Positions 7,761 to 46,215 of a DNA stretch of 64,000 bases are shown here, piece after piece; the first letter of the stretch is position 1; every line of letters starts with the position of its first letter. The position numbers were made by a program, and so were the translations under genes. This DNA is from Salminus brasiliensis (lineage: Eukaryota > Chordata > Actinopteri > Characiformes > Bryconidae): assembly GCF_030463535.1 (NCBI RefSeq), contig NC_132900.1:24731456-24795455 (forward strand), given 5' to 3'. A model generated the notes under the pieces. It was not told where the DNA came from. It did not search any database and saw only the letters and a list, made by a program, of their open reading frames with translations.

Positions 7761-7779
7761 AAAGAATGAACCCGCGGTG

Positions 7780-11325: not shown

Positions 11326-11744
11326 CTCCAGGTACATGTGCTGTATGTCCCCAGAGATGCTGTCAGGGATTTCAGGCCTCCTGAAAAGATCTTACACTGG
11401 ACCACACAACTCTTAACAGGTCAGCCAAAATGTTTTACTTAAAAACCTTTTACTTCAGTACAAACATTTAACCATGCTTCAGCTTTGTAGTTGTATGGGT
11501 ATGGGACTGTGTACTCCTTTTTTCAAAGGAATCTGGTCAGTACAATATTGTACCAACTAAAATGTAGCAAATCTCACTATATTTGCTGGACAGAGACACA
11601 ACACTCATTCTACAATAGAAAACATCAAAATACCTTCACAAATGAAAAACCTGACATCTCAGGTTATCTGCAAGACTTGTCACGTCTATACATGTGTCTC
11701 TTTATGTTGAACATGCTACAAAGTGCTGGACATTAAACCACACT

Positions 11745-11999
11745 GTCTCCAAAAGTATTGGGGACCTGCTCCATTTCTCTTGAAATCAGTATTAGCTGGA
11801 AGTTTAACCCCCTTTGCTGCAGGACCCACCTCTACTCTAAATATTGGAATATTGCTGAGAGGAGGATCTGATGGCATGCAGCCCCACAAGAGCGAGATCA
11901 GTGTGGTCAGGTACTGATGTTGGATGATTAGACTTACCACTCCAACTCACACCAAAGGTACTGGATGGAGCTCCATCACTCCAGAGAACCCCAAAGCCC
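11745..11999. mobile_element. MITE remnant abutting the gene B core promoter
   Basis: The segments ccaaaagtattggggacctg, gtactgatgttggatgatta and ggagctccatcactccagag follow the order of a common fish DNA-transposon MITE whose relative is at 20,491-20,848 (tatggacataagtattgaga ... ctccacagctcaatgctggg). It ends just upstream of the TATA box. Counterpart about 62,668-62,922. Confidence 0.6.
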
Positions 12000-12017
12000 A
12001 GTTTTCTCCACACTGTA

Positions 12018-12027
12018 TCTATATAAG
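12018..12027 (+). promoter_or_regulatory. TATA box of gene B
   Basis: tctatataag lies about 165 nt before the exon 1 donor. A start site roughly 25-35 nt downstream (about 12,050) is expected. The same element occurs in the upstream duplicate (10,968) and in copy 2 (62,941-62,950). Confidence 0.6.
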
Positions 12028-12049
12028 CAAATGTGTCAGACAAAGGCAT

Positions 12050-12192
12050 CAGTGTGTTTCTGTGCCGTCAATACATTTGTTTATCATCTCCTTCCCACAC
12101 TGCCACTTTTTTCTAACCTGACATCAACGTGGCAGGTGACATCTCTGTGGTTCAAACATCTCCACCTCATTCAGCCACAAGAACTTCATCAG
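12050..12192 (+). other. Gene B exon 1 (5' untranslated)
   Basis: The end is set by the donor atcag|gtaagatc. The start is estimated from the TATA box. The sequence tttgtttatca ... cctcattcagccacaagaac is conserved in gene A2 (48,430-48,535) and, more loosely, gene C (35,215-35,121). There is no ATG in frame with the leader exon: where gene A2 has gcatgacagg this exon has acgtggcagg. Confidence 0.65.
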
Positions 12193-12223
12193 GTAAGATC
12201 TTTCTGAACACATGAGTTCAACT

Positions 12224-12351
12224 GGGTCAGGTTTCCCAAAACATCTGAGCACAAAGACGATTCTTAGATGGTAGAACGAGCATCACACTGAACACTCTCT
12301 CTACCACTCAACATGATTCTGATACTGAGATGCTTTTGGGAAACTTGACCC
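12224..12351. mobile_element. Small inverted-repeat MITE in gene B intron 1
   Basis: gggtcaggtttcccaaaacatctgag at one end and its near reverse complement ctgagatgcttttgggaaac at the other enclose about 80 nt. The same element sits at the same place in gene A2 intron 1 (48,557-48,677), so it predates the A/B split. Copy 2 is 63,147-63,274. Confidence 0.7.
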
Positions 12352-12464
12352 TGATCAGTGTTTCACATCATTAGTTAGTAGTGAATTGAGTAGTTGTGTG
12401 TAAACTGAGTCACTATTTCTAGATTTGACAACATGTGTACAAATGTATATTTTAAAACCCACAG

Positions 12465-12543
12465 AGCGCTAACTCAGCACTGGTGGGAGTGTTTGGTGTT
12501 GTCATGGCAACTGTCCCTTTTTTCTTCCTCCTCCTCCTCTCAG
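12465..12543 (+). CDS. Gene B exon 2: leader
   Basis: The acceptor is aaacccacag and the donor tctcag|gtaaatg. ATG at 12,504 opens a 13-codon hydrophobic leader. The frame is also open upstream within the exon (SANSALVGVFGVV), but exon 1 joins it out of frame, so the ATG at 12,504 is the likely start. The split codon g|aa becomes Glu at the border with CTLD1. Confidence 0.85.
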
Positions 12544-15500
12544 GTAAATGTGTACTCATAATTATTCATTTTTAGAAACCAATTGGTTCTCATGTTTGCA
12601 TGAATTTTCTCTTAATAAGGTTTTTACGCATCACTCATACATCATACATATTTACTCAATAATCAGTAAGCTTATCAATAAACCTGTTTGTATCTAGATA
12701 TGTAATATAGATACAGATATCGCCCCACAAGGAGGAATTTGAGTATCATAAGCTCTAAATGTGTTAAAATGTTAATAGCAAAAAATATCACATCTCACCC
12801 TTTATTTTTCAAAATATACTTAAAGATTGTTTTGTTGCTTGTAGTTGTGCGAACAGATTTGATCAATCTTAATGTATGTAAAACTGCATGAATGCTGGAG
12901 AAACTAAGGTATTAAATTAACATTAAGCCCCTGCCTGCAGCGGTACACAAATGTAATCTTCAGGTACATCCATGCAGTTCATTTTCCCTCTAAAATATCC
13001 TTCTGCTCAACATAAAGGATCCAATAATAATAACTCATGATACTTATCCTAAACTTTTAATTGCTGTGCATTTTAGATATGCTTCCTTGGTCTGCACTAA
13101 GCTGTCTGTGTTGTAATGAAACTCAGCTTCAGAGATTAAAATTTAGTTGATCCGTTTATTAATTATTATTATGTTTAATATTTAGCTGCAATATCACGTG
13201 TTAGAGTTGATCTGTAACTGTGAAGCAGCTTCAATTTGAATATTGGTGTTGGTGATCTTCAGATAAAAGAGCTACACAGCATAATGTGAATCAGCGCCCC
13301 CCTGTGTATGAACAGATTCAACTCCAGATCAAAAGTCCTTCTGGGGTTCTGTACAAAGGTTCTAAACTTTAGAACTGAATATCTTTAGTATTAAATATGA
13401 TTAAATAAACCTTGTCACTATTGATTATATTAGCCATCAAGCAATTCAACATACCTGAAGCCCCTCCTCCCTAATCTAATGTCCTATAAACTCCATTTGT
13501 ACCTTGTCTATCACCCCGTCACCTCTCTTTTAACTTTTATTCCTGGCTCCACATATCAGGATTTCCTATAGTCTACTCCCAGATGACCATAGGCTGAAGG
13601 CACAGTCAGAACTTGCCAATTTAATACACATTTTTTTATTAATAGCTGGATTTAAGTGAACAATAAGAATTATTGAAACGTGTTTGTCTGAGATGTCTAT
13701 TCTGATGTTAAATCTTCATGAACTGCAAAATATTTGAATAGTAAACAGTTCATGGAGGTTTACACACATCTACACCAGTCATTTCTGTTCTACTCCATTA
13801 AGTAGAGAACATTTCTCCAGTCTTTTCTCCTGCAGAACAAAGCTGCCTCAGAACTTTCCATCTCATTGAGAAGAACATGACTCAGACTGAAGCTCGAGCA
13901 ACTTGCAGAGCCAACTACACTGACCTGGTCACTGTGTACGATGTGGAAGACATCACTGCACTGATTAATCTGACTGGTATCGGTTCTGCCTGGACTGGTC
14001 TGTTCCGGAATCAGTCCAGTACTAAATGGTCTAGTGGTGATGAAGTTACCTTCAGTGCTCTGTCAGGAGACTGTGGGTCAGGGCCGTGCTGTGCTGCTAT
14101 GAAGGTTGATGGTTCATGGGAAAGTCTTCTGTGCTCAGAGAAAAGGAATTTCATGTGTTATAAACAAGGTAAATACTGACTATTAACTATAGAGATTTAA
14201 ACTGTATGAATTCTGGACTGTTTACTCCTCTCAGCTTCTGCTGCATTTATTTACAATCTGTATCCCCCTGAAGCTTAATTTGTTTTTGTTTTTTTATGTG
14301 CTTAAAACCTGAACTGTGAGTAAGATGACCAAGTCCAGATTTATTTTTTTAAATCTCTTGATCCAGTCCAGGTACCTTCCATATTGAGTGTTGGCTGAAT
14401 CTGATACAACTTTTTTTTAAATAGTGCCGGGATGTCAGGATTCTCTAATGCACGCTTTAGCATTAGCCAGATCTTCTCTCACCTTCACTGGAGGAATAGC
14501 AGTGTCCTCCAAAATGGTCAAAACACTAAAAGTGCAGATCATGTAGGTGTAGATGTTCCACAGTAGAACTGTGCCACACTGCAGTCTGCAAAAACAAAGA
14601 ATTGGAACTGAACTGGACTTAAAGTGGCAATACCTGATCAACCCAAATATGCCTGGATTGGTTTGGGGCATCACTAATTGTCCAAATAGACTTGAATCAT
14701 GTTAAATCATGATTGTTCCACTTGCAGGTAGTTGCTAGGCTGTTGCCAGGTGATTGCAGTGGTATCAAAGTGGTTGCTATGACAATTTGATAATGTTGCA
14801 ATTATGTAAGGTTGTTGCTGTGGCTTTCAAGGTGGTTGCTATGACATTGCTATATGGTCGATATGGTATGTGGTGGATGCCATGGTGTTGCTAAGTGGTT
14901 GTTATCATATCCCAGGTGGTTGTTGTTGTGTTGCTAAGTGGTTGCAAGCTGGTTGCTATGGTGTTGCGAGGTAGTCTCTGTGGGATCCCATGTGGTTGCT
15001 AAGGTCTCCCAGGTGGTTGGTATGATGCTGCTAAATTGTTGCTGTGCTTGGTGGTGATTGCTATGGTGTTGCTATGGTTTCTATGGATGCTATGGTGTTG
15101 CTATGGTTTCCCAGGTGGTTGGCATGGTGTTGCTAATTGGTTTCGGTTGTATCCCCGATGGTTGGTAAACATTGCTAATTGGTTGCTATGGTGTTGCTAA
15201 TTGGTTGCTGTAATATTTCTATCTAGTTGCTATGATGTCCTTGGTGGTTACTAGGGTGTGGCTAAGTTGACACTATAGTAATTGTTATACAATTTCAGGC
15301 TTATGCCATGATGTTGCAAGGTGGTTGCTGTCTCAGGTACTGCTCAGATGTTGTCAAGTTGTTGCTAATCAAGTTGTTGCTATGGTACCGCAGATGGTTG
15401 CTACCATGGAACCATATCTTGATGGTTGTGTGTTACAAGTGTATTTGTATTGTTACATTTTCCAAAACATTTTCCATAAATTCCATTAAAATTCAGCAAA

Positions 15501-16693
15501 GATCTGCTGCTGTGAGGAAACTGTACATCTGCTCAAAAAGCAGCATCCAAGTCTACATCTCACAATAGGACTGAACAGTGGAACGGTGTCAATATCTTGA
15601 AAACGGAGGGTTGAGATTTGTGGCAAGAAAACTGCACAAAAAATAATAATATTTTTTGTTTTAAACTTTCTAAGGTGTTGCTCTTTTTAGATTGTTTGCT
15701 GCTGTTGTAGCTTTTAGATGCAGTCTGTTCCAGTAACAGAACACACACACATTCAACACCACATTCATCACATTCATCATAAACACCATCTTCATAATAT
15801 TAAATACTCATGACATGACATGTTTAAATGATGGCCACAATTGTTTTGATGTGTCCACTCTTTCTCCTTCACAGATGTGACTGACCTCTCCTTCAGCTAT
15901 CATCTGATCCCTCAGTCTCTGACCTGGTATGAAGCTCAGACTTACTGCAGGAAGAACTACACTGATCTGGTCAGCATCAGAGATCAGAACCAGAATGAAG
16001 CAGTGAAGATAAAAGGAGGGAACATCAGCATGTCCTTCTGGATCGGCCTGCTGCGTGATGACTGGGAGTGGACTGATGGAGGACACTCTGCTTACAGAAA
16101 CTGGTGGGATGGTCAGCCTGGGCCTTTCCCATCAGACTGTGTAAAACTAGTATCAGGAAAGTTGTATTCAGTGCCGTGCAGTAGTACTGGACCTGCTCTG
16201 TGCTACAGCAGTAAGGCCTGACACTCTTCACACTCTCTAACTCTCTCAGTTCAGTGTCATCAATATAACCCATCTAAAGTAAATCAGAGTCTCTTATTTC
16301 AGTCTAAAACCTGTTCTGTTTGTATTTCTGTTCCTATCAGCGTCCATTCATGTCAGTGATGACCGAATGAGCTGGGAGAGCGCTCTGGACTACTGTAAGA
16401 AAGAGAACAGGAATGGTCTTCTGCGCATCGAGTCTGATCAGGAGCAAAAACTGTTGGAGTCTGAGCTCAGGAGGAGGCGTGTCTCTGGACCGATGTGGGT
16501 GGGGCTGGGACAGAGGCGAATCTCTGAGCTGTTAAAGTTGTCCTGTAGGCTGGATTTGGGTCCCTGGACCAAGTGGACTGGAGTGCGTCCACCGTCCTCC
16601 GGCTGCGGTGCCACAGACACTGTGGTGAAATCATTCAGGGTGAAGACGGATGTTTCTGAACTCCGAGCCGTCTGTGAACTTAAAAAACAGTAA
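12504..16693 (+). CDS. Gene B: secreted-type three-CTLD C-type lectin-like protein (353 aa)
   Basis: Exons: leader 12,465-12,543 (ATG at 12,504), CTLD1 13,836-14,168, CTLD2 15,875-16,210, CTLD3 16,341-16,693. All coding junctions are phase 1 with canonical splice sites. Residues 1-13 are a hydrophobic leader (MATVPFFFLLLLS), then CTLD1 at 14-124, CTLD2 at 125-236 and CTLD3 at 237-353. No other membrane segment is visible, so secretion is likely. CTLD1 has sequons NMT, NYT, NLT and NQS. CTLD2 has QPG in place of EPN/QPD and no WND, so classical calcium-dependent sugar binding is doubtful. It is the shortest intact member: compared with A and C it lacks the first module (the CSEED-type CTLD1, a CTLD2 and the linker). 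A TATA promoter precedes it. 'Macrophage mannose receptor-like' describes resemblance, not proven function. Confidence 0.9.
13836..14168 (+). CDS. Gene B exon 3: CTLD1
   Basis: The acceptor is tctcctgcag and the donor caag|gtaaat; 333 nt. It opens [20 protein letters not shown] and keeps the first cysteine. The core [15 protein letters not shown], the [11 protein letters not shown] cluster and FMCYKQ follow. Confidence 0.92.
14715..15410 (+). repeat. Degenerate ggttgctatggtgttgcta minisatellite
   Basis: About 700 nt of imperfect tandem copies of ggttgctatggtgttgcta and variants (gctaagtggttg, cccaggtggttg), lying in the CTLD1-CTLD2 intron of gene B. Gene A's matching intron lacks the array, so it expanded after the two genes separated. 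Confidence 0.85.
15875..16210 (+). CDS. Gene B exon 4: CTLD2
   Basis: The acceptor is tccttcacag and the donor a|gtaagg; 336 nt. It encodes [23 protein letters not shown], a loop with DQNQN, then [26 protein letters not shown] and ALCYSS. The GNISMSF variant is shared with gene C's first CTLD2, whereas gene A has MTSSTSF. Confidence 0.92.
16341..16693 (+). CDS. Gene B exon 5: terminal CTLD3
   Basis: The acceptor is ttcctatcag; it ends in taa at 16,691-16,693. It encodes SIHVSDDRMSWESALDYCKK, GLLRIESD, MWVGLGQRR, GPWTKWTG, CGATD and a closing VCELKKQ. It is a more divergent domain than CTLD1/2 and has no calcium-site motif. It is the intact version of the domain that is decayed to a linker in genes A and C and truncated at the end of gene A. 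Confidence 0.9.
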
Positions 16694-21272: not shown

Positions 21273-21489
21273 GTAAGGATGTGATAGCTTTCATCAACTT
21301 TTTAATTCATTCTTATTCATTAATCCATTCACACCACAAATATATATGTGAAATATTACAGCATAAATTACAGTGTTAAACCTGCCAGATAGACCTAATG
21401 ATAGACCTAATGATAGACCTAATTTTGGCCCGTTTGAATTTATATTGCCTATTCCTCAGCAAACATGCCTGAGAAACATTGCATCCAAT

Positions 21490-22290
21490 TGGCTGGTGTT
21501 ACTGTCAGTGAGTGCTGATTAGTTGGCATTACTGTTAGTGAGTGCTGATTGGTTGGCATTTCTGTTAGTGAGTGCTGATTAGTTGCCATTACTGTTAGTG
21601 AGTGCTGATTAGTTGGCATTGCTGTTAGTGAGTGCTGATTGGTTGGCATCGCTGTTAGTGAGTGCTGATCAGTTGGCATTACTGTTAGTGAGTGCTGATT
21701 GGTTGGCATTACTGTTAGTGAGTGCTGATTGGTTGGCAATACTGTTAGTGAGTGCTGATTGGCTGGCATTACTGTTAGTGAGTGCCGCTTGGTTGGCATT
21801 ACTGTTAGTGAGTGCCGATTGGCTGGCATTACTGTTAGTGAGTGCTGATTAGTTGGCATTACTGTTAGTGAGTGCTGATTAGTTGGCATCACTTTTAGTG
21901 AGTGCTGATTAGTTGGCATCACTGTTAGTGAGTGCTGATTAGTTGGCATTACTGTTAGTGAGTGCTGATTGGTTGGCATTACTGTTAGTGAGTGCTGATT
22001 GGTTGGCATTACTGTTAGTGAGTGCCGCTTGGTTGGCATTACTGTTAGTGAGTACCAAATAGTTGGCATTACTGTTAGTGAGTGCCGCTTGGTTGGCATT
22101 ACTGTTAGTGAGTACCGAATAGTTGGCATTACTGTTAGTGAGTGCCGATTGGCTGGCATTACTGTTAGTGAGGGCTGATTAGTTGGCATTACTGTTAGTG
22201 AGTGCTGATTAGTTGGCATTACTGTTAGTGAGTGCTGATTGGTTGGCTATACTGTTAGTGAGTGCTGATTGGTTGGCATTGCTGTTAGTG
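21490..22290. repeat. 30-bp minisatellite, about 27 units
   Basis: Tandem units of actgttagtgagtgctgatt + ggttggcatt with scattered substitutions. A 30-bp period keeps a frame open in several registers, giving a 256-residue minus-strand frame of MPTNQHSLTV repeats that I do not treat as a gene. Nearly every unit carries gatt(g/a)g, close to an inverted CCAAT box. Confidence 0.96.
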
Positions 22291-23429: not shown

Positions 23430-24515
23430 GGTAATGATTTAGCACAGTCATGGACAATATTTTCCAGGCCAGGTAGTCCTGGACTATTTTTTTTCTCATG
23501 GAAATTTATTCTGACAGAACATAGATGTGGTTTAAATTTTATGTAAATAATTTTAATCTATTTAAATAATGTTTGAACAGAAACTAAAAACAAAAACTAC
23601 AAGAAATTTAGTTATTTTATTAGAATGGAAATATGAGATCTAGTTAAGATATTATTACATTACAAGTTCTTTCATTCAGTTATTGATTCTTATCTTATTA
23701 AGACCGGGTTATTTGGAAATAATCTGTCTAGATTAACAAAGCATTGAAAAAGAGAGTCCTTAAGAGGGAAAAATCATATTGAACAAATAAAAGTTTAATT
23801 TAAATAATATATTACATTCCACTCATATGATCACAAACCTAATAAGAACATTTCCATTCATTAGGGCTGTGTTTCTGCTGCAGTAATCACTGTTTGTGCT
23901 GGTACTATTTTAGGGAAATTAAACATTATATTTTCTTATCTGTTATGTAACACAGCCTCTCATCAGCGGTTACATTGCACTAAAATGGTCTCTTTGTTAT
24001 GCTGTGTTTGTGATAGTTTTAATAATCAAATATTAAACAATACTTAAAAATAAAATTAAATGAAATTACACACAACAAGCAAACAAAACTCATATATTTC
24101 CTAAAACATCTTGTTATTTAGAGAAACATAAGTAGCCTGTACACAGCAATTGGTTTCTTAAATTTTTTGTTACTTGTGTGGGAAATTAGTTACTTAATTA
24201 ATGTGGATTGTTATTCTTAGTCTCCAATTAGGAATAAGTTTTATGTAGTTCATTGTTGGGCTGGAAAGGCACTCAGTCGAAAACTGAGCCCCTGATTTAC
24301 ATAGATTTTCTCAATATTATCCCGCAAATAATCATTATAAAAAAACAGTAAGTCAAAATGTTATTACTCAGGTTCTGATTATAAGGTGGGCCAGCCTCAC
24401 AGAGGTCAGATTCAGTCACAGATGAGAATTTAAAATATAGGTAAAGTTAAATTCAGAAACATACATTTCCTGAATTCAGGTGTGTGTGTCTAACACACTG
24501 GGTATTTGAAGAGGA
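23430..24515. other. Gene C 3' flank, no gene seen
   Basis: AT-rich sequence. I could not pick a single poly(A) signal for gene C with confidence, and no frame resembles a known domain. Confidence 0.5.
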
Positions 24516-24886
24516 TCAGTTAGACAGATTCACTTTACATAAAGCTCTAAATTTAGACCAACAGTTTTTATTGAGCCATTTGAAGTCTTGCTTTGTGTCA
24601 ATGCCACCGCAGTGGTGGGACAGTTGAGGTTCTGGTGGTCCCCCTCCCACCCAGTTGGTCCAGGATCCCAAACCACTCCCATCGGACCAAAACCAGAAGC
24701 CAAACAGTCGACTCTGTCCAAGCCCCATCCACAAAGTCCCAGAGACACCCCTCTTATTGAGCTCATTCGTCATGATAATCTGGTCACACTCACTCCGAAT
24801 GTGTAGAAGACCAGCCCTGTTACCTTCCTGACAGTAGTCCAGAGCGCTTTCCCAGTTCATATGTTCATCACTGACATGAATGGAAG
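24516..24886 (-). CDS. Gene C terminal exon: CTLD3
   Basis: The acceptor is ctccatcag; it ends in a stop at 24,516. It encodes SIHVSDEHMNWESALDYCQE, GLLHIRSE, LWMGLGQSR, FWSDGSGLGSWTNWVGGGPP, HHCGG, LNKNC and LCKVNLSN. It keeps the W-C core of the fold better than gene B's version. Confidence 0.9.
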
Positions 24887-27800
24887 CTGATGGAGACAGA
24901 AAAGACCATGTTTGGAGTGAGGTCAGAGACATTGAGGCCCTGTTTACACTTGGCGTTAACATGTGTTCTGGGTGATCAAATCACTGCCTGAATAAAACAC
25001 ATCCCTGACCTACTAAAAAAAGACTTAATAATCGTCCTCATTGTCCATTGTACAAGCAATTTAGTTGCTCAACCTAAAATAACAAATTAAATAATGGATA
25101 AAGGCGATACTCATGGCTTAAATAATAATTATTATTCTAATACTTGTATTTTAATATGGGCTATGCCCCTCCTCCAGTGAAAATTATGTGCCAAATTGAA
25201 TCACAAGCAGTCATTTAACCATTTAAAATCAGTTTTGTCAGCTGTGAATGGCTATGTGTGTTGGCAATTATTTGTGTTTGGATCACCCAGGATGCATGTA
25301 AATGCTAAGTGTAAACAGGGCCTAAGAGTTAGAGTGTCTGTGAATTCAGTACTTACTGCTGTAGCACAGAGCAGATCCAGTATTACTGCACGGCAATGAA
25401 TACAACTTTCCTGATACTAGTTTTACACAGTCTGATGGGAATAGCCCAGGCTGACCATCCCACCAGTTTCTACAAGCAGAGCGTCCTCCATCGGTCCAAT
25501 CCCAGTCATCACGCAGCAGGCCGATCCAGAAGGGCGTGCTGCTGGTCATCCCTTTTATCTTCACTGCTTTATTCTGTTCCTGATCTCTGATGCTGACCAG
25601 ATCAGTGTAGTTCTTCCTGCAGCAAGTCTGAGCTTCATACCAGGTCAGAGACTGAGTGATCAGATGATAGCTGAAGGTGAGATCAGTCTCATCTGTGGAG
25701 GAATGTAAAGTTGTTCTTATTGTTAAACTTTGCATTTAGTGTTGGATCTGAAAGGACGAGAAATTCAGAGTTCATACAGTTTAAATCTCTATAGTTAATA
25801 GTCAGAATTTACCTTGTTTATAACACATGAAATTCCTTTTCTCTGAGCACCGAAGACTTTCCCAAAAGCCATCAGCCTTCATAGCAGCACAGCACGGCCC
25901 TGACCCACAGTCTCCTGACAGAGCACTGAAGGTAACTTCATCACCATTAGACCATTTAGTACTGGACTGATTCCGGTACAGACCAGTCCAGGCAGAACTG
26001 ATACCAGTCAGATTAATCAGTGCAGTGATGTCTTCCACATCGTACACAGTGACCAGGTCAGTGTAGTTGGCTCTGCAAGCTGCTCGAGCTTCAGTCTGAG
26101 TCATGTTCGTACCAAAGAGATGGAAAGTTCTGAGACGACTTTGTTGTGCAGGAGAAAAGACTAAAGAAATGTTCTCTAGTTAATGGAGCAGAACAGAAAT
26201 GACAGGTGTAGGTGTGATGTGTGTGATTCTATTTGAAACTTTACTCTTGTTTTACACTACACTTTATAATTAGTCATGTAGATTTCCATGCATATGTTCA
26301 ACTTTGTTTTGCTAAATTATATTTAAAGGTGGTTCCACAAGGAAGCAATTTAACTTACTTGTACCTTTGTCTTAAATGCAGTCGATCAGCTAAGGCAAAT
26401 ATTCAGTTTCTAAAATACATTTTTATCTTTAGCTTTGGAGATAGAATGTAACTAATGAAACTAATCTAACTAGTAATAGAAGTTTATACCCCACCATTTT
26501 TGATTCTAAGTCTATGCTAAAATCATCATCAACTCTCTTCAAACCACGTGGGGTTGTTCAGTAATCGCTAATAGACTGATGTGCTTTCTGACAATGTATG
26601 ACTTAGTGTTATCTATAAACATGGACTGAAGTACAGATAAAATATACTCTTAGCTGTGCAGCTTTAGCCCATGCTTATTATTACAGTGAATTATACAGAG
26701 TCAGAGAATTTGAACAGTAAACAGTTTCCTAACTAGGTCATAACTATATGACCAACATGAGCCATATCTTTGACCAACAAAGCCACACCTTTCAAATATA
26801 CTCACTTTACAGTGTGTGGCCCAGATCTGGACTGTAGCTGTTATTTCACCATTTAGCATGATGCTAATTGCATGCCAAGATCATCATATACTCTCCCCAA
26901 ACTGTGAGGGGATGGTCAGTAATCTCTAACAGACTTGGTTTCATAAATAAGAGACACAGTCTGAAATAATGTCATTTAAAGCCTTGCCATGTGTCTCTTA
27001 ACACAACACTGGTGGGACATTCCGCCCCAACACACCCAGCTGAGACCCACACCAACAATATATGACCAAAATCAGAAGCATAACAGTAAAAGTAAGAAGA
27101 CCAGTCCTGTTACCTTTCTTTCTGCAGCCCAGAGGGCCCTGCCCGTTTCTATAGTCAATGCTGGAATTAATGGGTTCTGATAGAGACAAAAAATACAAAA
27201 GAGTGATATCAGGAAGAGTAATAAACTGTGATTTATTGATGATACTGAACACTGCTTAGAGAGTGAGAGTGTGTGTGTGAGGTCATGACTTACTGCTGTA
27301 GCACAGAGCAGGTCCAGTATTACTGCACAGCACTGAATACAACTTTCCTGATACTAGTTTTACACAGTCGGATGGGAATGGCCCAGGCTGACCATCCCAC
27401 CAGTTTCTGTAAGCAGAGCGTCCTCCATCAGCCCACTCCCAGTCATCACGCAGCAGGCCGATCCAGAAGGACATGCTGATGTTCACTCCTTTTATCTTCA
27501 CTGCTTCATTCTGGTCTGGATCTCTGATGCTGACCAGATCAGTGTAGTTCTTCCTGCAGTAAGTCCGAGCTTCATACCAGGTCAGAGACTGAGGGATCAG
27601 ATGATAGCTGAAGGTGAGATCAGTCTGATCTGTGGAGGAAAAAGAATGTAAAGTTGTTCTTAATGTTGAACTTTGCATTTAGAGTTGGATCTGAAAAAAT
27701 GAGAAGTTCAGAATTCATACAGTTTAAATGTCTATAGTTAAAAGTCAGAATTTACCTTGTTTATAACACCTGAAATTCCTTTTCTCTGAGCACTGAAGAT

Positions 27801-30800
27801 TTTCCCATGAACCATTAGCCTTCATAGCAGCACAGCACGGCCCTGACCCACATTCTCCTGACAGAGCACTGAAGGTAACTTCATCACCATTTGACCATTT
27901 AGTACTGGACTGATTCCGGTACAGACCAGTCCAGGCAGAACCGATACCAGTCAGATTAATCAGTGCAGTGATGTCTTCCACATCGTACACAGTGACCAGG
28001 TCAGTGTAGTTGGCTCTGCAAGCTGCTCGAGCTTCAGTCTGAGTCATGTTCTTCTCAATGAGATGGAAAGTTCTGAGACAACTTTGTTGTGCAGGAGAAA
28101 AGACTGGAGAAATGTTCTCTAGTTAATGGAGCAGAACAGAAATGACAGGTGTAGGTGTGATGTGTGTGATTCTATTTGAAACTTTACTCTTGTTTTACAC
28201 TACACTTTATAATTAGTCATGTAGATTTCCATGCATATGTTCAACTTTGTTTTGTAAAATTATATTTAAAGGTGGTTCCACAAGGAAGCAATTTAACTTA
28301 CTTTTACCTTTATCTTAAATGCAGTCGATCAGCTAAGGCAAATATTCAGTGTGTAAAATACTTTTTTATCTTTAGCTTTGGAGATAGAATGTAACTAATG
28401 AAACTAATCTAACTAGTAATAGAAGTTTATACCCCACCATTTATGATTCTAAGTCTATGCCAAAATCATCAGCAGCTCTCTTCAAACCATGTGGGGTTGT
28501 TCAGCAATCGCTAATAGACTGATGTGCTTTCTGATAATGTATGACTTAGTGTTATCTATAAACATGGACTGAAGTTCAGATAAAATATACTCTTAGCTGT
28601 GCAGCTTTAGCCCATGCTTATTATTACAGTGAATTATACAGAGTCAGAGAATTTGAACAGTTAACTGTTTTCTAACTAGGCCATAACTATGTGACCAACA
28701 TAAGCCATATCTTTCACCAACATAGCCATACCTTTCAAATATACTCACTTTACAGTGTGTGGCCCAGATCTGGACTGTAGCTTTTATCTCACCATTTATC
28801 ATGATGCTAACTGCATGCCAAAATCATCATACACTCTCCCCAAACTGTGAGGGGATGGTCAGTAATCTCTAACAGACTTGGTTTCATAAATAAGAGACAC
28901 AGTATGACTTACTGTTTTCTCTGAACGTGGACTGAAGTACACATAAAATTAAGTTCTTAGCTCTGCAGCTTTAGTCCATGTAACAGTGAGTTATACAGAG
29001 TTAGAAACCAAAGTCAAATCAGCATTTGATTCGTGGCTGAACTCTGACTTCAGGGTTTAAGATTTAATAGGGATGAGAAGGATTTAATGAGAGCTGGTAT
29101 GACTTACAACAGCAAGTTTGATTTGCTCTGGTCAGCTACTCCTGTGCACTGCCAGAATGAGACTGAAATCTATTATCTCACCACAAGAAGGCCTCAGTTT
29201 AATGTGTAAAGCTATTCTTAAGTAGGCAGGATTTGAGGAAGACAAACAGATTCTGGGCTCAAGTCTTACTGGTCCAAACAATCTCTTAATTATATTATTA
29301 TTTTTAGAATAATTCTACATGTCGTAACAATCTTCAGCCCTTATAATGTCATTTAAAGCCTTGTCATGTGTCTCTCACACAACACTGGTGGTAAAACCCC
29401 CCCAGACACCCAGCTGAGACCCACACCAGCAATATATGACCAAAGCCAGAAGCAGAACAGTAAAAGAAAGAAGACCAGTCCTGTTACCTTTCTTTCTGCA
29501 GCGCAGAGGGTCCTGCCCGTTTCTATACGCAATGCTGGCATTAATGGGTTCTGAAAGAGAAAAAAATGCAAAAGAGTGATATCAGGAAGAGTAATAAACT
29601 GTGATTTATTGATGATACTGAACACTGCTCAGAGAGTTAGAGTGTGTGTGTGAGGTCATGACTTACTGCTGTAGCACAGAGCAGGTCCAGTATTACTGCA
29701 CGGCACTGAATACAACTTTCCTGATACTAGTTTTACACAGTCTGATGGGAACGGCCCAGGCTGACCATCCCACCAATTTCTGTAAGCAGAGCGTTCTCCA
29801 TCAGTCCACTCCCAGTCATCACGCAGCAGGCCGATCCAGAAGGCCGTGCTGCTGGTCATCCCTTTTATCTTCACTGCTTCATTCTGGCCCTGATCTCTGA
29901 TGCTGACCAGATCAGTGTAGTTCTTCCTGCAGTAAGTCCGAGCTTCATACCAGGTCAGAGACTGAGGGATCAGATGATAGCTGAAGGTGAGATCAGCCTC
30001 ATCTGTGGAAGAAAAAGAATGTAAAGTTGTTCTTATTGTTAAACTTTGGATTTAGAGTTGGATCTGAAAGAACGAGAAGTTCAGAATTCATACAGTTTAA
30101 ATATCTATAGTTAATAGTTAGTATTTACCTTGTTTATAACACATGAAATTCCTTTCAGCTGAGCACAGAAGACTTTCCCATGAACCATCAGCCTTCATAG
30201 CAGCACAGCACGGCCCTGACCCACAGTCTCCTGACAGAGCACTGAAGGTAACTTCATCACCATTAGACCATTTAGTACTGGACTGATTCTGGTACAGACC
30301 AGTCCAGGCAGAACCGATACCAGTCAGATTAATCAGTGCAGTGATGTCTTCCACATCGTACACAGTGACCAGGTCAGTGTAGTTGGCTCTGCAAGCTGCT
30401 CGAGCTTCAGTCTGAGTCATGTTCGTCCCAATGAGATGAAAAGTTCTGAGCCAGCCTTGTTGTGCAGGAGAAAAGACTGGAGAAATGTTCTCTAGTTAAT
30501 GGAGCAGAACAGAAATGACAGGTGTAGGTGTGATGTGTGTGATTCTATTTGAAACTTTACTCTTGTTTTACACTACACTTTATAATTAGTCATGTAGATT
30601 TCCATGCATATGTTCAACTTTGTTTTGTAAAATTATATTTAAAGGTGGTTCCACAAGGAAGGAATTTAACTTACTTTTACCTTTATCTTAAATGCAGTCG
30701 ATCAGCTAAGGCAAATATTCAGTGTGTAAAATACTTTTTTATCTTTAGCTTTGGAGATAGAATGTAACTAATAAAACTAATCTAACTAGTAATAGAAGTT

Positions 30801-33800
30801 TATACCCCACCATTTATGATTCTAAGTCTATGCTAAAATCATCAGCAGCTCTCTTCAAACCACGTGGGGTTGTTTAGCAATCGCTAATAGACTGATGTGC
30901 TTTCTGATAATGTATGACTTAGTGTTATCTATAAACATGGACTGAAGTACAGATAAAATATACTCTTAGCTGTGCAGCTTTAGCCCATGCTTATTATTAC
31001 AGTGAATTATACAGAGTCAGAGAATTTGAACAGTAAACAGTTTTCTAACTAGGCCATAACTATGTGACCAACATGAGCCATATCTTTCACCAACATAGCC
31101 ATACCTTTTAAATATACTCACTTTACAGTGTGGCCCAAATCTGGACTGTAGCTGTTATCTCACCATTTATCATGATGCTAATTGCATGCCAAAATCATCA
31201 TACACTCTCCCCAAGACATGAGGGGATGGTCAGTAATCTCTAACAGACTTGGTTTCATAAATAAGAGACACAGTATGACTTACTGTTTTCTCTGAACGTG
31301 GACTGAAGTACACATAAAATTCAGTTCTTAGCTCTGCAGCTTTAGTCCATGTAACAGTGAGTTACACAGAGTTAGAAACCAAAGTCAAATCAGCATTTGA
31401 TTTGTGGCTGAACTCTGACTTCTGGGTTTAAGATTTTATAGAGATGAGATGGATTTAATGAGAGCTTTACTTTTCTTCAATCAGCTTAATCAGTGCAGTA
31501 AAAAATATAGTACTGAGTTGAGCCAGTTTTATGTCTGTTTTCACCACCAGAGGGCCACAGTTTAATAGGCTCTTGTGGTCTCCCTCCTTCACAGTTGGTC
31601 AAAGGACTCACACAAGTCTTTTAGACCAAACGCAGAAGTTAGAGAGTCAAGGTCAGACTTAATGTGTAGAAGATTAGTCCTGTTACCTTTCTTACAGTAG
31701 TCTAGAATGCACTCCAAGCTGACATTTACAGACACTGATAGAGACAGAAAAGACAATGTTTTACAGTGAGATCAGAGACACTGACTGATGTGAGGTGTTT
31801 TATATTGATGGTACTGGACATTGCTGAGAGAGGTAGAGTGTGTGTGAAGTCAGGACTTACTATTGTAGCACAGAGCAGCAGACACATTATTACTGCATGG
31901 CACTGTTTCCCATTTCCCATTTCTCAGCTGTGTACAGTTTGATGGTGATCGAGGTTGACCAGCCCCCCAGTTTCTGTAAGCAGAGCGTCCTCCATCAGCC
32001 CACTCCCAGTCATCACGCAGCAGGCCGATCCAGAAGGACATGCTGATGTTCCCTCCTTTTATCTTCACTGCTTCATTCTGGTCCTGATCTTTGATGCTGA
32101 CCAGATCAGTGTAGTTCTTCCTGCAGTAAGTCTGAGCTTCATACCAGGTCAGAGACTGAGTGATTAGATGAGAGCTAAAGGTGAGGTCACTCACATCTGT
32201 GGAGGGGAAAGAGTGGACACAATAACACTGAATTTTGATGCAAACAGAGAAAAGACATACAGAATTCATACAGTTTAAATCTCTATAGTTAATAGTTAGT
32301 TTTTACCTTGTTTATAACACATGAAATTCCTTTTCTCTGAGCACAGAAGACTTTCCCATGAACCATCAGCCTTCATAGCAGCACAGCAGGGCTTTAACCC
32401 ACAGCTCCCAGTCAGATTACTGAATGTAACTTCATCACCATTAGACCATTTAGTACTGTTCTGACCGCGCTGCAGACCAGTCCAGACTCCACTGTTAGTT
32501 TTAGTCAGATTAATCAGTGCAGTGATGTCTTCTTCACTGCACACAGTGACCAGGTCAGTGTAGTTGGCTCTGCAAGCTGCTCGAGCTTCAGTCTGATTCA
32601 TGTTCTTCTCAATGAGATGGAAAGTTCTGAGACAGCTTTGTCCTGCAGGAGAAAAGACTGGAGAAATGTTCTCTAGTTAATGGAGTAGAACAGAAATGAC
32701 AGGTGATTTTAAATAATTTCTCTCCCTATTTATATTTTATTGATTATTAATGTGGGGATTTGGGTGGAGACATTCAGGTTTGATTAGTTAAATAAGCAGA
32801 TTTAGGGGTTACACTGTTTAAAGAAATAAATAATTTATTTAATTTGTATTTTTTAAATATGTAATGAACAATTTCTAACACACTGCTAATGTAAAACATT
32901 TAAAAGACATGAATAAAGTCCAAGTTCAAAATAGCAGTAAATGACCAGACAAACATTCTAGCTTGTTGATTTCAGCTCTACAACTCCAGAGTGAGCAATG
33001 ATGATTACATTTCTCTTAAAAACAAATGTGTGACTATATTTGAATGCAGGTGCATTCTCCTTTCTCATCCACCAAGAGACGCTATTGTACTTTCATAAGG
33101 CCAGTGGTGGATACTGACCACTCAGGTCAGTTAATAAGCTCAGTTAATAAACTCAGGTAATTAATAAACTTAATAAACACAACTACAGAATGCATTATTC
33201 AATTTGTGCACATTTCTAGTACTACCTTTATTGTATGGCATATTTATAAGCATAAATTAGTGTCAACCTTAGTGTCAATCATACTTTAATTAATAACAGT
33301 CGTTCATGTAAATATTACAGTAGGTGTCAAAAGTATTCACATTAATCACGCTAAGTATAGACACTAGGGTTTAAAAAGACATAAATTGAATTATTAACTT
33401 AATTAATATAAGAAAAACAAAGGCCAAAAGGTTGCAACAGGGGTATATAGTGCACTACCCCACCTCCCCATAAAACATTTTTCTAAAAGCCATAATGACT
33501 ATAATAAAAATGTTAATGCTGAAAAATGTTGGGCTGCACTAGGCTGCCTATTTCAGCTACATACATGCCCATTGAAAATGATGCATGTTAGTAATATCAA
33601 ATATATTAAAGGAGCATCTATTTTCATTAACATGTGTTTCATGGAGCGGAAAATATGATGAGTAGTTGCCTCATATGTCTTATATACAATAACCTTTATT
33701 GGAATGTAAATGTGGGGCTTAGTTGGGACATGTCACTCAAGTTCTCTTGAGTCTCTGCCACGGTCATCTTCATACTAGGCTACATACGTCTGCTATGTCA

Positions 33801-34827
33801 CACTTTCTGGATGGCCCGATTGATCTGGATAGGGTTTTTTTTTTAAACGATGACAAACCGAAATTAAATAGGAGTAACGAGGCTATTTTGAATATGTAAG
33901 GTTTAGAAGATAACTGCATGAAAATGTATGAAGTACAAGTAAGATAAGATAAGATAATCCTTTATTAGTCCTACAGTGGGAAAATTCTTAAGTAAAAAGA
34001 ATTACTCCAGTAAAGTATAGATAACCAACATTTCTTAAGTAAGGTAACAAAGTATTTGTACTTCGTTACATGACATCTCTGCTTGTTTAGGTGTTTCTTA
34101 CAGCTTCACACAACATGTAGAGCATGCTGAATCACTGTAACTCTTTACATTCAGCTCTACAGCAGACACTTATTACATAGCAGAGAAAACCTACTGACTG
34201 ACATCTGATTCTGAGATAATAATCATAAGAACTAAAAATCATATTTATTAATGTAAGAAATGTTCTTTACTGATTTCTTACCGTGAATGAAAAAGACAAC
34301 TTTCGACCAGACTGGCACACTCAATTACCTCTACCACTACTAGAGGGAGGTAGTGTGCTTTTTTTCAAGCTGAATAAACTTCAGTAAAATCTAACCGGAC
34401 TGAATGTATGAATATTTCATACCAGTAAAATGATCTTCTTATGAAAGATTATTAATTATTCACACTAGTTTCACATTTAGCAGGATAAACCTAGACTACA
34501 TATCATAAGTACATTGAAATGCATTAATGCCAGAACTGCAGTGGTTTGCTGGTTTAGAAGGATCAGAGTTATCTATCATCTCTATGAGTAGAAGAACAGA
34601 ACCAGCAGATCAGACCAGTTCAGAAATCAGTTATTGTTCACTGTTCAGAACACATCCATCAGAAACCCTTCAAGACTATAAGAAGAACCAGATAGTGAAG
34701 AAAGCTTATTAATTATGAGTACAGGTGTGTGGTGTTTAGTGTCAATTAATGTATAAAGATAATGTATTAAAAGTAGAGATGCACCTGAGAAAAGGAGCAG
34801 AAGGAGGAAGACAGGGATGGTTGCCAT
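24516..34827 (-). CDS. Gene C: nine-CTLD C-type lectin-like protein (1,103 aa)
   Basis: Thirteen coding exons on the minus strand splice into one frame: leader 34,827-34,785; CTLD1-1 32,642-32,307; CTLD2-1 32,196-31,861; linker 31,734-31,687; CTLD1-2 30,476-30,129; CTLD2-2 30,002-29,667; linker 29,550-29,488; CTLD1-3 28,103-27,756; CTLD2-3 27,629-27,294; linker 27,176-27,114; CTLD1-4 26,160-25,813; CTLD2-4 25,692-25,357; CTLD3 24,886-24,516. All borders are phase 1 and the summed length is 3,312 nt with no internal stop. Order in the protein: leader 1-14, four CTLD1-CTLD2 pairs separated by 16-21-residue linkers, then CTLD3 at 981-1,103. No later membrane segment is seen. It could instead be read as several small genes, but only one leader exon exists on this strand and there is no internal terminal exon. 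CTLD2-4 has unusual extra cysteines (QTCC, SACRN). Confidence 0.8.
24935..25323. mobile_element. MITE with about 40-bp inverted repeats in last intron of gene C
   Basis: The left end aggccctgtttacacttggc and the right end (reverse complement) aggccctgtttacacttagc continue as matching arms through ctgggtgatc. The 389-nt element has no coding capacity. Terminal gggccctgtttacac-type ends are known from hAT-like MITEs. Confidence 0.8.
25357..25692 (-). CDS. Gene C exon: CTLD2-4
   Basis: The acceptor is attcctccacag and the donor a|gtaagt; 336 nt. It is like the other CTLD2 exons but reads QTCCRK for QTYCRK, QNKAV for QNEAV, WDW for WEW and SACRN for SAYRN, the most diverged CTLD2 of the gene. 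Confidence 0.9.
25813..26160 (-). CDS. Gene C exon: CTLD1-4
   Basis: The usual acceptor site reads tgcac rather than tgcag. The next AG upstream, ttctttag ending at 26,161, would start the exon 15 nt earlier and keep frame, adding VFSPA. The donor is caag|gtaaat. The first cysteine is Arg (QSRLRTF). The core and closing cysteines are intact. Confidence 0.8.
26161..27113 (-). other. Gene C intron, module 3/4
   Basis: The intron is paralogous to 28,104-29,487 and 30,477-31,686 (for example tttccatgcatatgttcaac and gccataactatgtgaccaac). It is about 0.43 kb shorter than the 28.1 kb intron, lacking the part with tgttttctctgaacgtggac. Confidence 0.8.
27114..27176 (-). CDS. Gene C linker mini-exon 3
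   Basis: 63 nt, phase 1-1, acceptor tctctatcag, donor aaag|gtaacagg. It encodes KPINSSIDYRNGQGPLGCRKK, already far from the CTLD3 original but with conserved length and C-x-K-K end. Confidence 0.7.
27294..27629 (-). CDS. Gene C exon: CTLD2-3
   Basis: 336 nt, phase 1-1, canonical splice sites. It encodes [20 protein letters not shown] in the variable loop, [26 protein letters not shown] and closing VLC and ALCYSS. Confidence 0.9.
27756..28103 (-). CDS. Gene C exon: CTLD1-3
   Basis: The ancestral acceptor is tgcac. The alternative ttctccag starts the exon at 28,103, adding VFSPA in frame. The domain keeps [39 protein letters not shown] and closing RCYKQ. Confidence 0.8.
28104..29487 (-). other. 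Gene C intron, module 2/3
   Basis: The longest of the three paralogous module introns. Long stretches match 30,477-31,686 almost base for base, showing recent tandem duplication of a unit of about 2.37 kb. Confidence 0.8.
29488..29550 (-). CDS. Gene C linker mini-exon 2
   Basis: 63 nt, phase 1-1, acceptor tctctttcag, donor aaag|gtaacagg. It encodes KPINASIAYRNGQDPLRCRKK, close to linker 3. Confidence 0.7.
29667..30002 (-). CDS. Gene C exon: CTLD2-2
   Basis: 336 nt, phase 1-1. It encodes [53 protein letters not shown] and ALCYSS. Confidence 0.9.
30129..30476 (-). CDS. Gene C exon: CTLD1-2
   Basis: The ancestral acceptor is tgcac, with ttctccag 15 nt upstream in frame. The opening reads [13 protein letters not shown], so the first cysteine is Trp. 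It also reads GLYQNQSSTKW and closes [14 protein letters not shown]. Confidence 0.8.
30477..31686 (-). other. Gene C intron with CTLD3 fossil
   Basis: Directly after linker 1 the intron still reads as the rest of CTLD3: NRTNLLHIKSDLDSL and, further on, a stretch aligning with the GSWTNWVGGGPP region of the terminal exon, ended by stops (about 31,686-31,560). The remainder is paralogous to the other module introns. Confidence 0.75.
31687..31734 (-). CDS. Gene C linker mini-exon 1
   Basis: 48 nt, phase 1-1, acceptor tctctatcag, donor aaag|gtaacagg. It encodes MSVNVSLECILDYCKK, very close to the start of CTLD3 and to the gene A linker, but 15 nt shorter. Confidence 0.75.
31861..32196 (-). CDS. 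Gene C exon: CTLD2-1
   Basis: 336 nt, phase 1-1. It encodes [50 protein letters not shown] and NGKWETVPC, so it belongs with gene A's CTLD2a rather than with the other CTLD2 exons of gene C. Confidence 0.9.
32307..32642 (-). CDS. Gene C exon: CTLD1-1
   Basis: The acceptor tctcctgcag is intact (unlike the other three CTLD1 exons of this gene); 336 nt. It encodes [38 protein letters not shown] and [15 protein letters not shown], the CSEED type shared with gene A2's first domain. Confidence 0.92.
32700..34784 (-). other. Gene C intron 2
   Basis: No exon is visible. Near 33,945-33,985 there is a short fish LINE-tail-like piece (gataagataagataatcctt then tattagtcctacagtggg). The end around 34,500-34,680 is paralogous to 42,900-43,020 near the pseudogene (gcattaatgccagaactgca). 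Confidence 0.6.
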
Positions 34828-34861
34828 AGTAACAACAAACACTTCCACCAGAGTTGGTTCC
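34785..34861 (-). CDS. Gene C leader exon
   Basis: The acceptor is aaaccctcag and the donor tctcag|gtgcat. ATG at 34,827 gives MATIPVFLLLLLFS, a hydrophobic leader, then the split Gly codon. The upstream frame EPTLVEVFVVT is open but does not join exon 1 in frame. Confidence 0.8.
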
Positions 34862-35120
34862 CTGAGGGTTTGAAATACAGCATCAGAACTGTTCTGGACA
34901 TCAGTCAGTCTGATTATCAAACACAATGTAAACACAGTTTGTAGGAAAGAATTTACATTATAAAACATGTTTCTACAAAGAACAGCTCAAAGGTCCTGCT
35001 AAATCTGTCATAAAAACTGAGACTGAATTTACTCATAACTAATCAATACTGTAAAAAAAAAAAAATGATCAGTTGATTAGAGAAGTCTAGAAGGATGCAG
35101 GAACACGACTGCAGTCATAC

Positions 35121-35215
35121 CTGATGAAGTGCTGGATGCCGAATGAGGAGAAAACACAACCAGAAAATTAAACCTGCTGACATCACAGTGTCAGGAGAAA
35201 TGTAGGCTGGAGTTG
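35121..35215 (-). other. Gene C exon 1 (5' untranslated)
   Basis: The donor cacttcatcag|gtatgac aligns with gene B's aacttcatcag|gtaag. Upstream, tatttgtttatcaactcc matches the start of gene A2 and B exon 1. An ATG inside it (MSAGLIFWLC) is not in frame with the leader. Confidence 0.6.
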
Positions 35216-35236
35216 ATAAACAAATAAGACTGACCA

Positions 35237-35357
35237 GGGCCACGTTTCCTAAAGCATCCTATTGTATTAACATCATCTAAACTGTTAGAGAGAGAGTGTG
35301 TAGCTCACTCTACTCTTTGACCTTTGTGCTAAGATGCTTTTGTGAAACCCAGCCCTG
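35237..35357. mobile_element. Inverted-repeat MITE next to gene C start
   Basis: cagggccacgtttcctaaag and the far end gatgcttttgtgaaacccag then ccctg form inverted ends like those of the gene A/B intron 1 element. Here it lies about 20 nt upstream of exon 1, so it is a separate insertion. Confidence 0.6.
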
Positions 35358-35359
35358 TT

Positions 35360-36376
35360 ACAGATGAAAGACCTAGCTAAGTTGAACTCAATTATACATT
35401 TTTTGGGGTATAAATTAACAAATAAATAAATAACATTTTAAAAGCAACCTGGTGTTGACTGAGCTACAACACTCTAATTCAACCCCCACGCCAGACCAGC
35501 TAGGACAATTTGTTTTGTTCCACACTGACTTTTCTGCTTTTCATACTTTCTGTGGTTGGACAGAGCATTGTTGGACAGAACTCTCTGTTACATTCAGAGT
35601 TCGGCAAAATATCTTTGCGAAGCACTGAATATCCCATTGATAGGCCGCAATGTATGATGAAGGATTGTGAGAATTAAACAACATTGATTCAACAGGAACA
35701 TTCATGTGAACGTTCAAGTTAAAGTTCAAGTTTTTTTTAAGGAAAACCTTAACAAAGTAATCATGAGATCTCTAATCAGCAGTGATGCAGTACAATGTGA
35801 TATTATATGACCTGTCAACAATAAGGTAAAAAGAGGGAAATGTGCTCATGAGGAAGCTACATGCAAATATGTGCCGAGAAAAAATAGTCTCTTTCATAGA
35901 AAGATACAATTATACAAGATACAGTATATTTAATGATATAATATATAATATATAATTATTCTTTGTGTTTTAATTATTTTTTAGTTTTGTAGGCCGTCAT
36001 GAGAGTGTACTGATAAGTCTTCTTTCCTGGGCTTCTGGATTATTAGGATAAAGGGCCACTGTGTTAGTCACATTAAGTCTTTTTCTAGACCAAAAGCTAG
36101 GACGATTCTAAGGGCCTGTGATTGACAAATAAGATCCCATAAAATTTGTGGAGGTACATATATTTTGCATATACATTCATACTTTATTTAGTACACATTG
36201 TACGAATACAGAAATGATCTAAACATATACTACTTACTACTACTAAACTTATAAACTGTCAACCTTCATAAAACATTTTACTCAAAATATTAAAACATTT
36301 CCTTTTATTTTTCTTGTTTGGTAAAAAATAAACATCCAGAGTCTGCATTGTCTGATTTGCCTCTATCCCTCTATTT
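35360..36376. other. Intergenic spacer, no gene seen
   Basis: AT-rich sequence with ata runs near 35,930. No recognisable domain. Confidence 0.6.
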
Positions 36377-42050: not shown

Positions 42051-43039
42051 AAGTTAATCTTTTATTGTTGTATGCAGGCAAAATAAAAGAAATACAGGAA
42101 TGCTATTATACACTATCATTTATGCAGTTTCATAGACCAGAAATTACCATACCCGTGGACAATATTTCCTTTTCAATGTAAAGTTTTCAGTCAAAGTGCC
42201 CAGTAGGACTGCAGTGTTGTCTTCTTCACTGCACACAGTGACCAGGTCAGCTCTGCAAGCTGCTCAAGCTTCAGTCTGAGCCAGTTCGTCCAAATGAGAT
42301 GGAAAGTTCTGAGACAGCTTTGTTGTGCAGGAAAAAAGATTGGAGAAATGTTCTCTAGTTAATGGAGCAGAACAGGTGTGGACGTGATGTGTATATATGA
42401 GTGTTTTTAAATCATTTCTTTTTTAAATCATTTTCTTTTTTTCATTTGCTTTATTGATTATTAATGTGGGGATTTGGTTGGAGACTGTTTTGACTGTTTT
42501 TGTCTGTAAAATTAACAGATTTAGGGGTTACACTGTTACACTGTAGAAAAACGTCTGTTAAATTTAATTGAATTCTATCTAAAATCTTAAATGAGTGATT
42601 ACTAACACACTGCTAATGTAAAGTAATGTATGACAGATTAAATCACATTAATAAAGTCCAGTCTACTGAGAAAGTTCAAACTAGCAGTAAATGACAGGAC
42701 ATTAGTTCTAGCTGGTTGTGTTCAGCTCTACAGCTCCAAAGTGAGAAATGATGGTTAAATTCCTCTAAAAAAAGTTTGACTCTATTTGAATGCAGATGCA
42801 TTCTCCATTCTCATCCACGGGTAGGTGCTATTGTACTTTTATAAGGCTTTAATACTTTAATAGTCCACTTTTTTTTTTTTACATTGAGCAGGTAAAATTT
42901 TCCATACTATAAGTACACAGAAATGCATTAATGCCAGAACTGCAGTGGTTTTCTGGTTTAGTAGAATTAGAGCTAATCATTTCTTTGAGTAGAACTAAAA
43001 AGAGTACAGAACACATTCATCAAAAAAAAAAAAAAAAAG

Positions 43040-45720: not shown

Positions 45721-45912
45721 AGGTCTATATTGTGGATGGGTGAGTGGGCATTTAGGCAAGGAATGGGAGAATTGGAGGGTTAGAGGGGTTAGTCACACTT
45801 TATCTGCTGTAAACCATATGTTGGACACTCAATCCCAATCAAACCCAATCAAACTGATTTTGAATACCACCAATATGTTTAAAATAGTCATTAATTACAA
45901 GTTTATATTTAC

Positions 45913-45976
45913 CTGAGAAGAGGAGGAGGAGGAAGACAGGAACAGTTGCCATAGCTACACTTCCACCTTGTAAGCC
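45913..45976 (-). pseudogene. Pseudogene leader exon
   Basis: The acceptor is gtattttacag and the donor tctcag|gtaaat. The leader MATVPVFLLLLFS has no defect, so the promoter-proximal part may still be transcribed, but no intact domain exon follows. Confidence 0.75.
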
Positions 45977-46215
45977 CTGTAAAATACAGCACCAGGAGTG
46001 TTCTAGAGATTCAGTCTGATTATTAAACTACATCTTACAGAGCATTTTTTAACAGAATCATTTTGGTAAAGCAGTAATGAAAACTGTGCACAAATTTAAA
46101 TATATCTAATCAATCATGTCAAAAACTGATCAGCTAAATAGGGAGTTCTGAAAAGATGCAGGACATGACTTGTAGTCATATCTTATGCAGTGCTGGATGC
46201 TGAAGGAGGAGGTAA

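Follow-up and report, generated by a model that had tools for sequence, protein, structure and literature searches.

A predicted nine-domain C-type lectin-like gene of Salminus brasiliensis, built from two-domain modules apparently joined by truncated CTLD3 exons

Results

The window, a stretch of 64,000 nucleotides from Salminus brasiliensis (24,731,456-24,795,455 of contig C27; assembly of 1.07 Gb in 103 contigs), carries on its minus strand, at 24516-34827, a gene whose exons we rebuilt from splice signals. The 13 exons give a single open frame of 1,103 amino acids with 0 internal stops (Table 1), identical in length to the frame that a preliminary description of this DNA had assembled from 13 phase-1 exons on the same strand. 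The coding sequence, 3,312 nt including the stop codon, consists of a 43-nt leader and 12 exons, each entered in phase 1, and every internal exon both starts and ends in phase 1. AG precedes all postleader exons and GT follows all exons except the last, which closes with its own TGA. Past this TGA, the first ATTAAA was found at 492 nt and the first AATAAA at 894 nt. In modules 2 to 4, the proximal CTLD1 acceptor has been lost (CTGCAG changed to CTGCAC), and an in-phase alternative acceptor was found in 3 of 3. Loss of the proximal acceptor was rejected as a general mark of internal modules, since it is missing from some plus-strand first modules and retained in some inner ones.

Table 1. Exons of the nine-domain gene (window positions) and its nine-domain sister (contig positions); a slash marks the splice site
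Feature	Position	Strand	Basis or remark
Leader exon, signal-like peptide MATIPVFLLLLLFS, ends in phase 1	34785..34827	-	Homologous leaders in sister genes
CTLD1 of module 1, first-position type	32307..32642	-	Pfam Lectin_C, tree
CTLD2 of module 1	31861..32196	-	Gene model, Pfam
Linker 1, putative CTLD3 exon stump, 48 nt, ends AAAG/GTAACAGG	31687..31734	-	
CTLD1 of module 2, inner type, upstream acceptor ctccag/TCTTTT	30129..30476	-	
CTLD2 of module 2	29667..30002	-	Gene model
Linker 2, putative CTLD3 exon stump, 63 nt; read-through would give a hydrophobic tail, stop ~29,375	29488..29550	-	
CTLD1 of module 3, inner type	27756..28103	-	Gene model
CTLD2 of module 3	27294..27629	-	Gene model
Linker 3, putative CTLD3 exon stump, 63 nt; read-through hydrophobic too, stop ~26,998	27114..27176	-	
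CTLD1 of module 4, inner type	25813..26160	-	Gene model
CTLD2 of module 4	25357..25692	-	Gene model
Terminal CTLD3 exon, own TGA	24516..24886	-	Pfam, PDB relatives
Nine-domain sister, cluster unit D	C27:24645141-24656200	-	2-nt insertion in last CTLD2, frameshifted, first stop after residue 958

Pfam detected nine Lectin_C stretches in the spliced product (E value, 1.4e-123), and each of the three exon types (CTLD1, CTLD2, and CTLD3) was a clear CTLD when scored alone. Five unrelated families were also matched by the 1,103-residue protein, two of them over their cut-off and none with a passing stretch. The cysteines that we take to be the core cysteines did not vary among the aligned exons of CTLD1 (8 sequences) and CTLD2 (9 sequences), each set including four from the nine-domain gene, and were present in CTLD3. 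By profile and core cysteines, the predicted product belongs to the C-type lectin-like domain superfamily. Classical C-type lectins that bind sugar in a calcium-dependent manner have an EPN or QPD motif plus a WND motif. Since EPN, QPD, and WND are all absent from the 1,103 residues, classical calcium-dependent sugar binding by the product is unlikely.

The arrangement originally proposed, a leader followed by four CTLD1-CTLD2 pairs with short linkers and a final CTLD3, was right as to the nine domains and needs correction as to the linkers, which are truncated CTLD3 exons (see below). The leader had been called the only one on this strand. This holds inside the gene; farther upstream, the minus strand carries a decayed leader-like sequence near 45,870-46,030 and also a CTLD1 fragment at 42,204-42,296, and a comparable decayed pair is present elsewhere in the cluster. 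An Rfam scan of 24000-36000 gave 0 matches.

Signal peptide and membrane segments were judged by 19-residue hydropathy with a threshold of 1.6. The leader was signal-like and alone exceeded this value; hydropathy revealed no transmembrane segment beyond it in the 1,103-residue spliced product. The product has 54 cysteines and 31 N-glycosylation sequons and may be glycosylated. FN2 had no match on contig C27 (34 matches in the genome, with 58 of 58 candidates scored), and Pfam found no ricin-type domain in the spliced product. The suggestion that FN2 and a membrane anchor are missing was thus borne out for the contig and the spliced product, respectively; linker read-through, which bears on the anchor, is considered below. 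The nine Lectin_C stretches and the lack of a postleader hydrophobic stretch support the proposed secreted all-CTLD chain as a prediction from sequence.

Six of the 19 listed open reading frames (ORFs) of intron 1 were scanned with Pfam and had no match. The same scan of 10 of the 116 listed flanking ORFs gave matches for one frame alone, located downstream (21452-22246). Chordopox_G3 scored above its cut-off and three families scored below theirs, and no stretch passed alone; a CCL2-like lectin family below its cut-off (19 bits; cut-off, 27) was found among other odd matches. We take these matches as chance in biased sequence.

The window was joined to 250 kb of surrounding sequence, and related exons were mapped across the resulting 314 kb; the leader queries came from the cluster's own units. 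A unit consists of a leader, a repeated module (CTLD1, CTLD2, and a short exon, here called the stump), and then CTLD1, CTLD2, and CTLD3. The stump-containing module is missing in three units (three-CTLD genes), occurs once in most, and is repeated three times in two, namely, the nine-domain gene and one sister. Two plus-strand units have no full CTLD3, and some units have broken exons. Several remnants were not counted as units or modules: CTLD1 fragments at cluster positions 262204, 151780, 74417, and 46934, pieces of CTLD2 that follow five plus-strand units, pieces of CTLD3 adjacent to stumps, and three leaders that are not followed by a full CTLD.

Five units with full CTLDs share the same strand and leader type, and a sixth leader of this type has a mere fragment behind it. 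The four same-strand sister genes contain 2, 2, 3, and 4 CTLD1 exons, corresponding to 5, 5, 6, and 9 CTLDs, and three of the four are fully open. Products of 608 and 613 amino acids are encoded by the five-CTLD sisters and one of 721 amino acids by the six-CTLD sister, in which one CTLD2 is missing. Within this local family, in which the number of two-domain modules varies from gene to gene, the nine-domain gene looks like the longest that is open.

On the plus strand, two similar blocks (window positions ~1-16684 and 48702-64000) lie ~51 kb apart, with the nine-domain gene between them, and overrun both window ends. Each has a leader and two CTLD1-CTLD2 modules, between which a stump is found; after these comes a three-CTLD gene that is separate and has a leader of its own. 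The first leaders of the two blocks are of different types.

In the 314 kb, 22 leader-like sequences were found, of which 19 precede a CTLD unit and 3 have no full CTLD behind them. A leader was present at the first module of 19 of the 20 CTLD units, the exception having a broken CTLD1, and directly before 0 of the 21 internal modules. Furthermore, blastn with 1.1 kb around the leader of the nine-domain gene detected no copy between its modules. Because of this contrast in leader counts, we regard a leader as the mark of a separate gene in this cluster, and internal modules do not have one. A series of small genes, each with a leader, was rejected, as no internal leaders were detectable. These counts, together with four sister genes of the same plan, make the single gene favored in the preliminary description the best reading.

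Trees were built from full-length exons (35 CTLD1 and 37 CTLD2) and were midpoint rooted, with no support values shown. In the CTLD1 tree, first-position and inner-position exons formed two main groups spanning both strands. Because of this grouping across strands, the tree suggests that the two-module plan may be older than much of the cluster expansion. The CTLD1s of three-domain genes fell in both groups, that at cluster position 169175 with the first-position group and those at 233838 and 284761 with the inner group. Inner-type CTLD1 exons also occur outside the cluster. With 150 of 246 candidates scored in the genome search, at least 12 copies were detected on the minus strand of C7 (18.18-19.57 Mb; 79 to 88% identity; ~50 to 360 kb apart) and at least 3 on C12 (6.5, 21.05, and 21.11 Mb).

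In alignments, the linker exons match the 5' portion of CTLD3 and stop at its sequence ...E G N R. Their donor, AAG/GTAACAGG (GTAAC), is coding sequence in an intact CTLD3, and downstream CTLD3 remains with the middle deleted are found beyond linkers 1 and 2. The linkers are 5' stumps of lost CTLD3 exons. Stumps were present at 20 of the 21 cluster junctions, 19 with the exact donor GTAACAGG and one with GTAAGAGG; the junction without a stump is a gap in the six-CTLD gene. The GTAAGAGG stump lies at C27:24594423 (unit 80886, plus strand), and its donor is GTAACAGG changed towards the usual donor consensus. G at +5 is absent from the stump donor and likewise from the CTLD1 donors of the nine-domain gene.

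Each of the 20 stumps can be read as a symmetric exon, 48 or 63 nt long, that is open and ends at the donor; this openness is partly by construction, as the scan kept solely acceptors yielding open exons. Six representative stumps were compared pairwise over 120 nt on each side of the donor. In 12 of 15 pairs, similarity was higher by at least 10 points on the side preceding the donor. In the other three pairs, similarity fell by 6 points, was equal on both sides (98%), or was higher by 3 after the donor (45% before and 48% after). Because of the drop in 12 pairs, similarity tends to stop at the donor, as would be expected if the donor is used; deletion of the exon remains alone could produce the same pattern.

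Divergence between the nine-domain gene and its nine-domain sister is 1.81% in exons (60/3,312) and 1.30% in the rest (90/6,928). The exons contain one indel, the 2-nt frameshift of the sister, and the rest contains 14 indels, 9 of them with lengths not divisible by three. Since this sister is frameshifted in its last CTLD2, the long nine-domain form has been lost once in the cluster. Compared with the older sister B, which is itself open, exons differ by 4.7 to 7.0% and the rest by 16 to 34%, and all exon indels are multiples of three. Eight partly overlapping comparisons gave four indels in exons (2, 6, 9, and 9 nt, the 2-nt indel being the sister's frameshift) versus 55 outside them.

The dN/dS ratios, calculated from pairs that are not independent and without the nine-domain sister's last (frameshifted) CTLD2 and its CTLD3, were 0.75 to 0.77 among inner modules and 0.62 to 0.86 between first and inner modules. 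Among first modules, CTLD2 gave 0.77 and CTLD1 gave 1.93, the latter based on few changes. Five CTLD1/CTLD2 groupings thus fell within 0.62 to 0.86, and constraint was clear in CTLD3 alone (0.35).

At 36 of 49 exon differences between the nine-domain gene and its nine-domain sister, both bases also occur in other copies, compared to ~8.8 expected under a crude null; the 49 differences come from 7 of the 8 CTLD1/CTLD2 exon pairs, module 4 CTLD2 being omitted because the sister's exon is frameshifted. This excess of shared bases points to ongoing sequence exchange between copies, to which shared ancestry could contribute. Positive selection as the cause of the higher divergence in exons than in introns was set aside, since synonymous and nonsynonymous rates are both raised and 36 of the 49 differences involve shared bases.

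Discussion

The best reading of the sequence is that the nine-domain locus is one gene, which probably encodes one secreted, heavily glycosylated all-CTLD chain and would be transcribed and spliced through all modules. Its ancestor was most likely a three-domain gene (leader, CTLD1, CTLD2, and CTLD3). Duplicated bodies of this gene may have fused, the internal copies being without a leader, and an internal splice donor may have cut each internal CTLD3 exon to a short stump, so that splicing could continue to the next module. With internal exons running from phase 1 to phase 1, the number of modules could change without a break in the frame, and the modules may keep diverging through exchange with neighboring copies. 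Most likely, the product is a multivalent binder that acts without calcium in mucus or body fluid, for example, as an innate-defense agglutinin or decoy; a secreted multivalent binder in defense is the role that we infer.

Read-through of a stump would terminate the protein early, which counts against the long chain. The weak constraint in CTLD1 and CTLD2, the higher divergence in exons than in introns from the nine-domain sister, the frameshift in that sister, the missing G at +5 of the stump donor, the three stump pairs in which similarity did not drop clearly, and the one broken unit in which no leader was detected also weigh against this reading. A short gene could be composed of the leader, CTLD1 and CTLD2 of module 1, and the read-through of linker 1, with modules 2 to 4 as mostly untranscribed relics and the CTLD3 derived from a lost gene. 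Indeed, this read-through is open for 32 residues, up to a stop at ~31,589, with ATTAAA 22 and 129 nt beyond it, and the CTLD1 exons of modules 2 to 4 are those without the proximal acceptor. However, all three have the in-phase alternative, modules 2 to 4 are still open, 0 frame-breaking indels were seen in module comparisons inside the gene, and the same architecture with a stump was found repeatedly across the cluster. We consider such a short gene unlikely. It is likewise improbable that the whole nine-domain copy is unexpressed or a decaying pseudogene that is open because it is young. The frameshift in a sister that differs by merely 1.8% in exons and 1.3% elsewhere would fit this view, as would the weak constraint in CTLD1 and CTLD2, but in this copy all 3.3 kb of exons remain open and no boundary is without its GT or AG, and the comparison with the open sister B showed exon indels in multiples of three alone despite 16 to 34% difference outside exons.

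The long form could also exist beside alternative 3' ends, with retention at linker 2 or 3 giving four- or six-CTLD proteins with a membrane anchor born from a frameshift. The read-through peptides of these linkers, GLLSFTVLLLALVIYCWCG and GLLTFTVMLLILVIYCWCG, have 19-residue hydropathies of 2.15 and 2.19, linker 2 of the nine-domain sister reaches 2.28, and an ATTAAA lies 171 nt past the linker 2 stop. Yet basic residues stand on the luminal side of the hydrophobic stretch, contrary to the positive-inside rule, and no AATAAA or ATTAAA was found at linker 3 in the stretch scanned. Moreover, the hydrophobic stretch aligns with a middle-deleted CTLD3 and may be a mere remnant. Alternative 3' ends of this kind seem very improbable. 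Read-through at linkers 2 and 3 was the one route that we found to a membrane form, and shorter membrane isoforms arising in this way are unlikely. By extension, each junction might act as a switch, at which continued splicing would give a longer secreted chain and stump read-through an early end, with a membrane anchor at two junctions; the chance of this appears slight. If it were true, one gene would give secreted and membrane-bound arrays of 2, 4, 6, or 9 domains.

If the single-gene reading is true, the locus illustrates in concrete terms how tandem genes can be fused to yield a longer protein. The ordinary coding stretch GAA GGT AAC of a last exon could act as a splice donor, and with the rest of the exon lost, a terminal domain would become a spacer and the following copy would become accessible to splicing. 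Since genes of 3, 5, 6, and 9 domains lie side by side in the cluster, this idea is testable in one animal. For annotation, such loci are a warning, as they readily split into "mannose receptor fragments."

The mannose receptor family (group VI: MRC1, MRC2, PLA2R, and LY75) has a CTLD count similar to that of the nine-domain gene, and the best solved-structure relatives by sequence belong to this family (LY75, PLA2R, MRC1, and the IgY receptor). In contrast to this family, the nine-domain gene has no FN2 match on its contig and no membrane segment in its spliced product, its terminal exon carries its own stop, and its domains are closely similar repeats of one module. A mannose receptor gene was rejected, since FN2 was without a match on the contig and no anchor was found.

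PMC514892 describes the fish group F1 as soluble dual- and triple-CTLD proteins (FDC-F1 to F7 and FTCP in Fugu) that consist of CTLDs alone, have no membrane anchor, were first taken for mannose receptor fragments, and evolve fast. As far as this account goes, the nine-domain product is like F1 in that it is predicted to be soluble and to consist of CTLDs alone with no anchor, and the three-CTLD genes of the cluster match the triple-CTLD protein in domain number. F1 proteins, however, have two or three CTLDs, whereas the nine-domain gene has nine (three neighboring genes have three). In the same account, each fish protein has one or more CTLDs with calcium/carbohydrate residues, unlike the nine-domain product with its lack of EPN, QPD, and WND. 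Another long row of CTLDs in a fish prediction is that of DEC-205-FUSE from Fugu, whose CTLDs form one group of 5 and another of 10 (7 in a later assembly), according to PMC514892. In contrast to the nine-domain product, for which Pfam gives neither domain, this gene-finder prediction includes LCCL and discoidin domains. A secreted fish protein with nine CTLDs was not found in the literature searched, the coverage of which was incomplete. By description, the nine-domain gene resembles a lengthened F1 protein in the way it would work; because its domain number and sugar-site residues differ from those in the F1 account and the comparison is by description, we do not assign it to F1. The gene represents an extension of an already known group of fish proteins, not a new kind of system.
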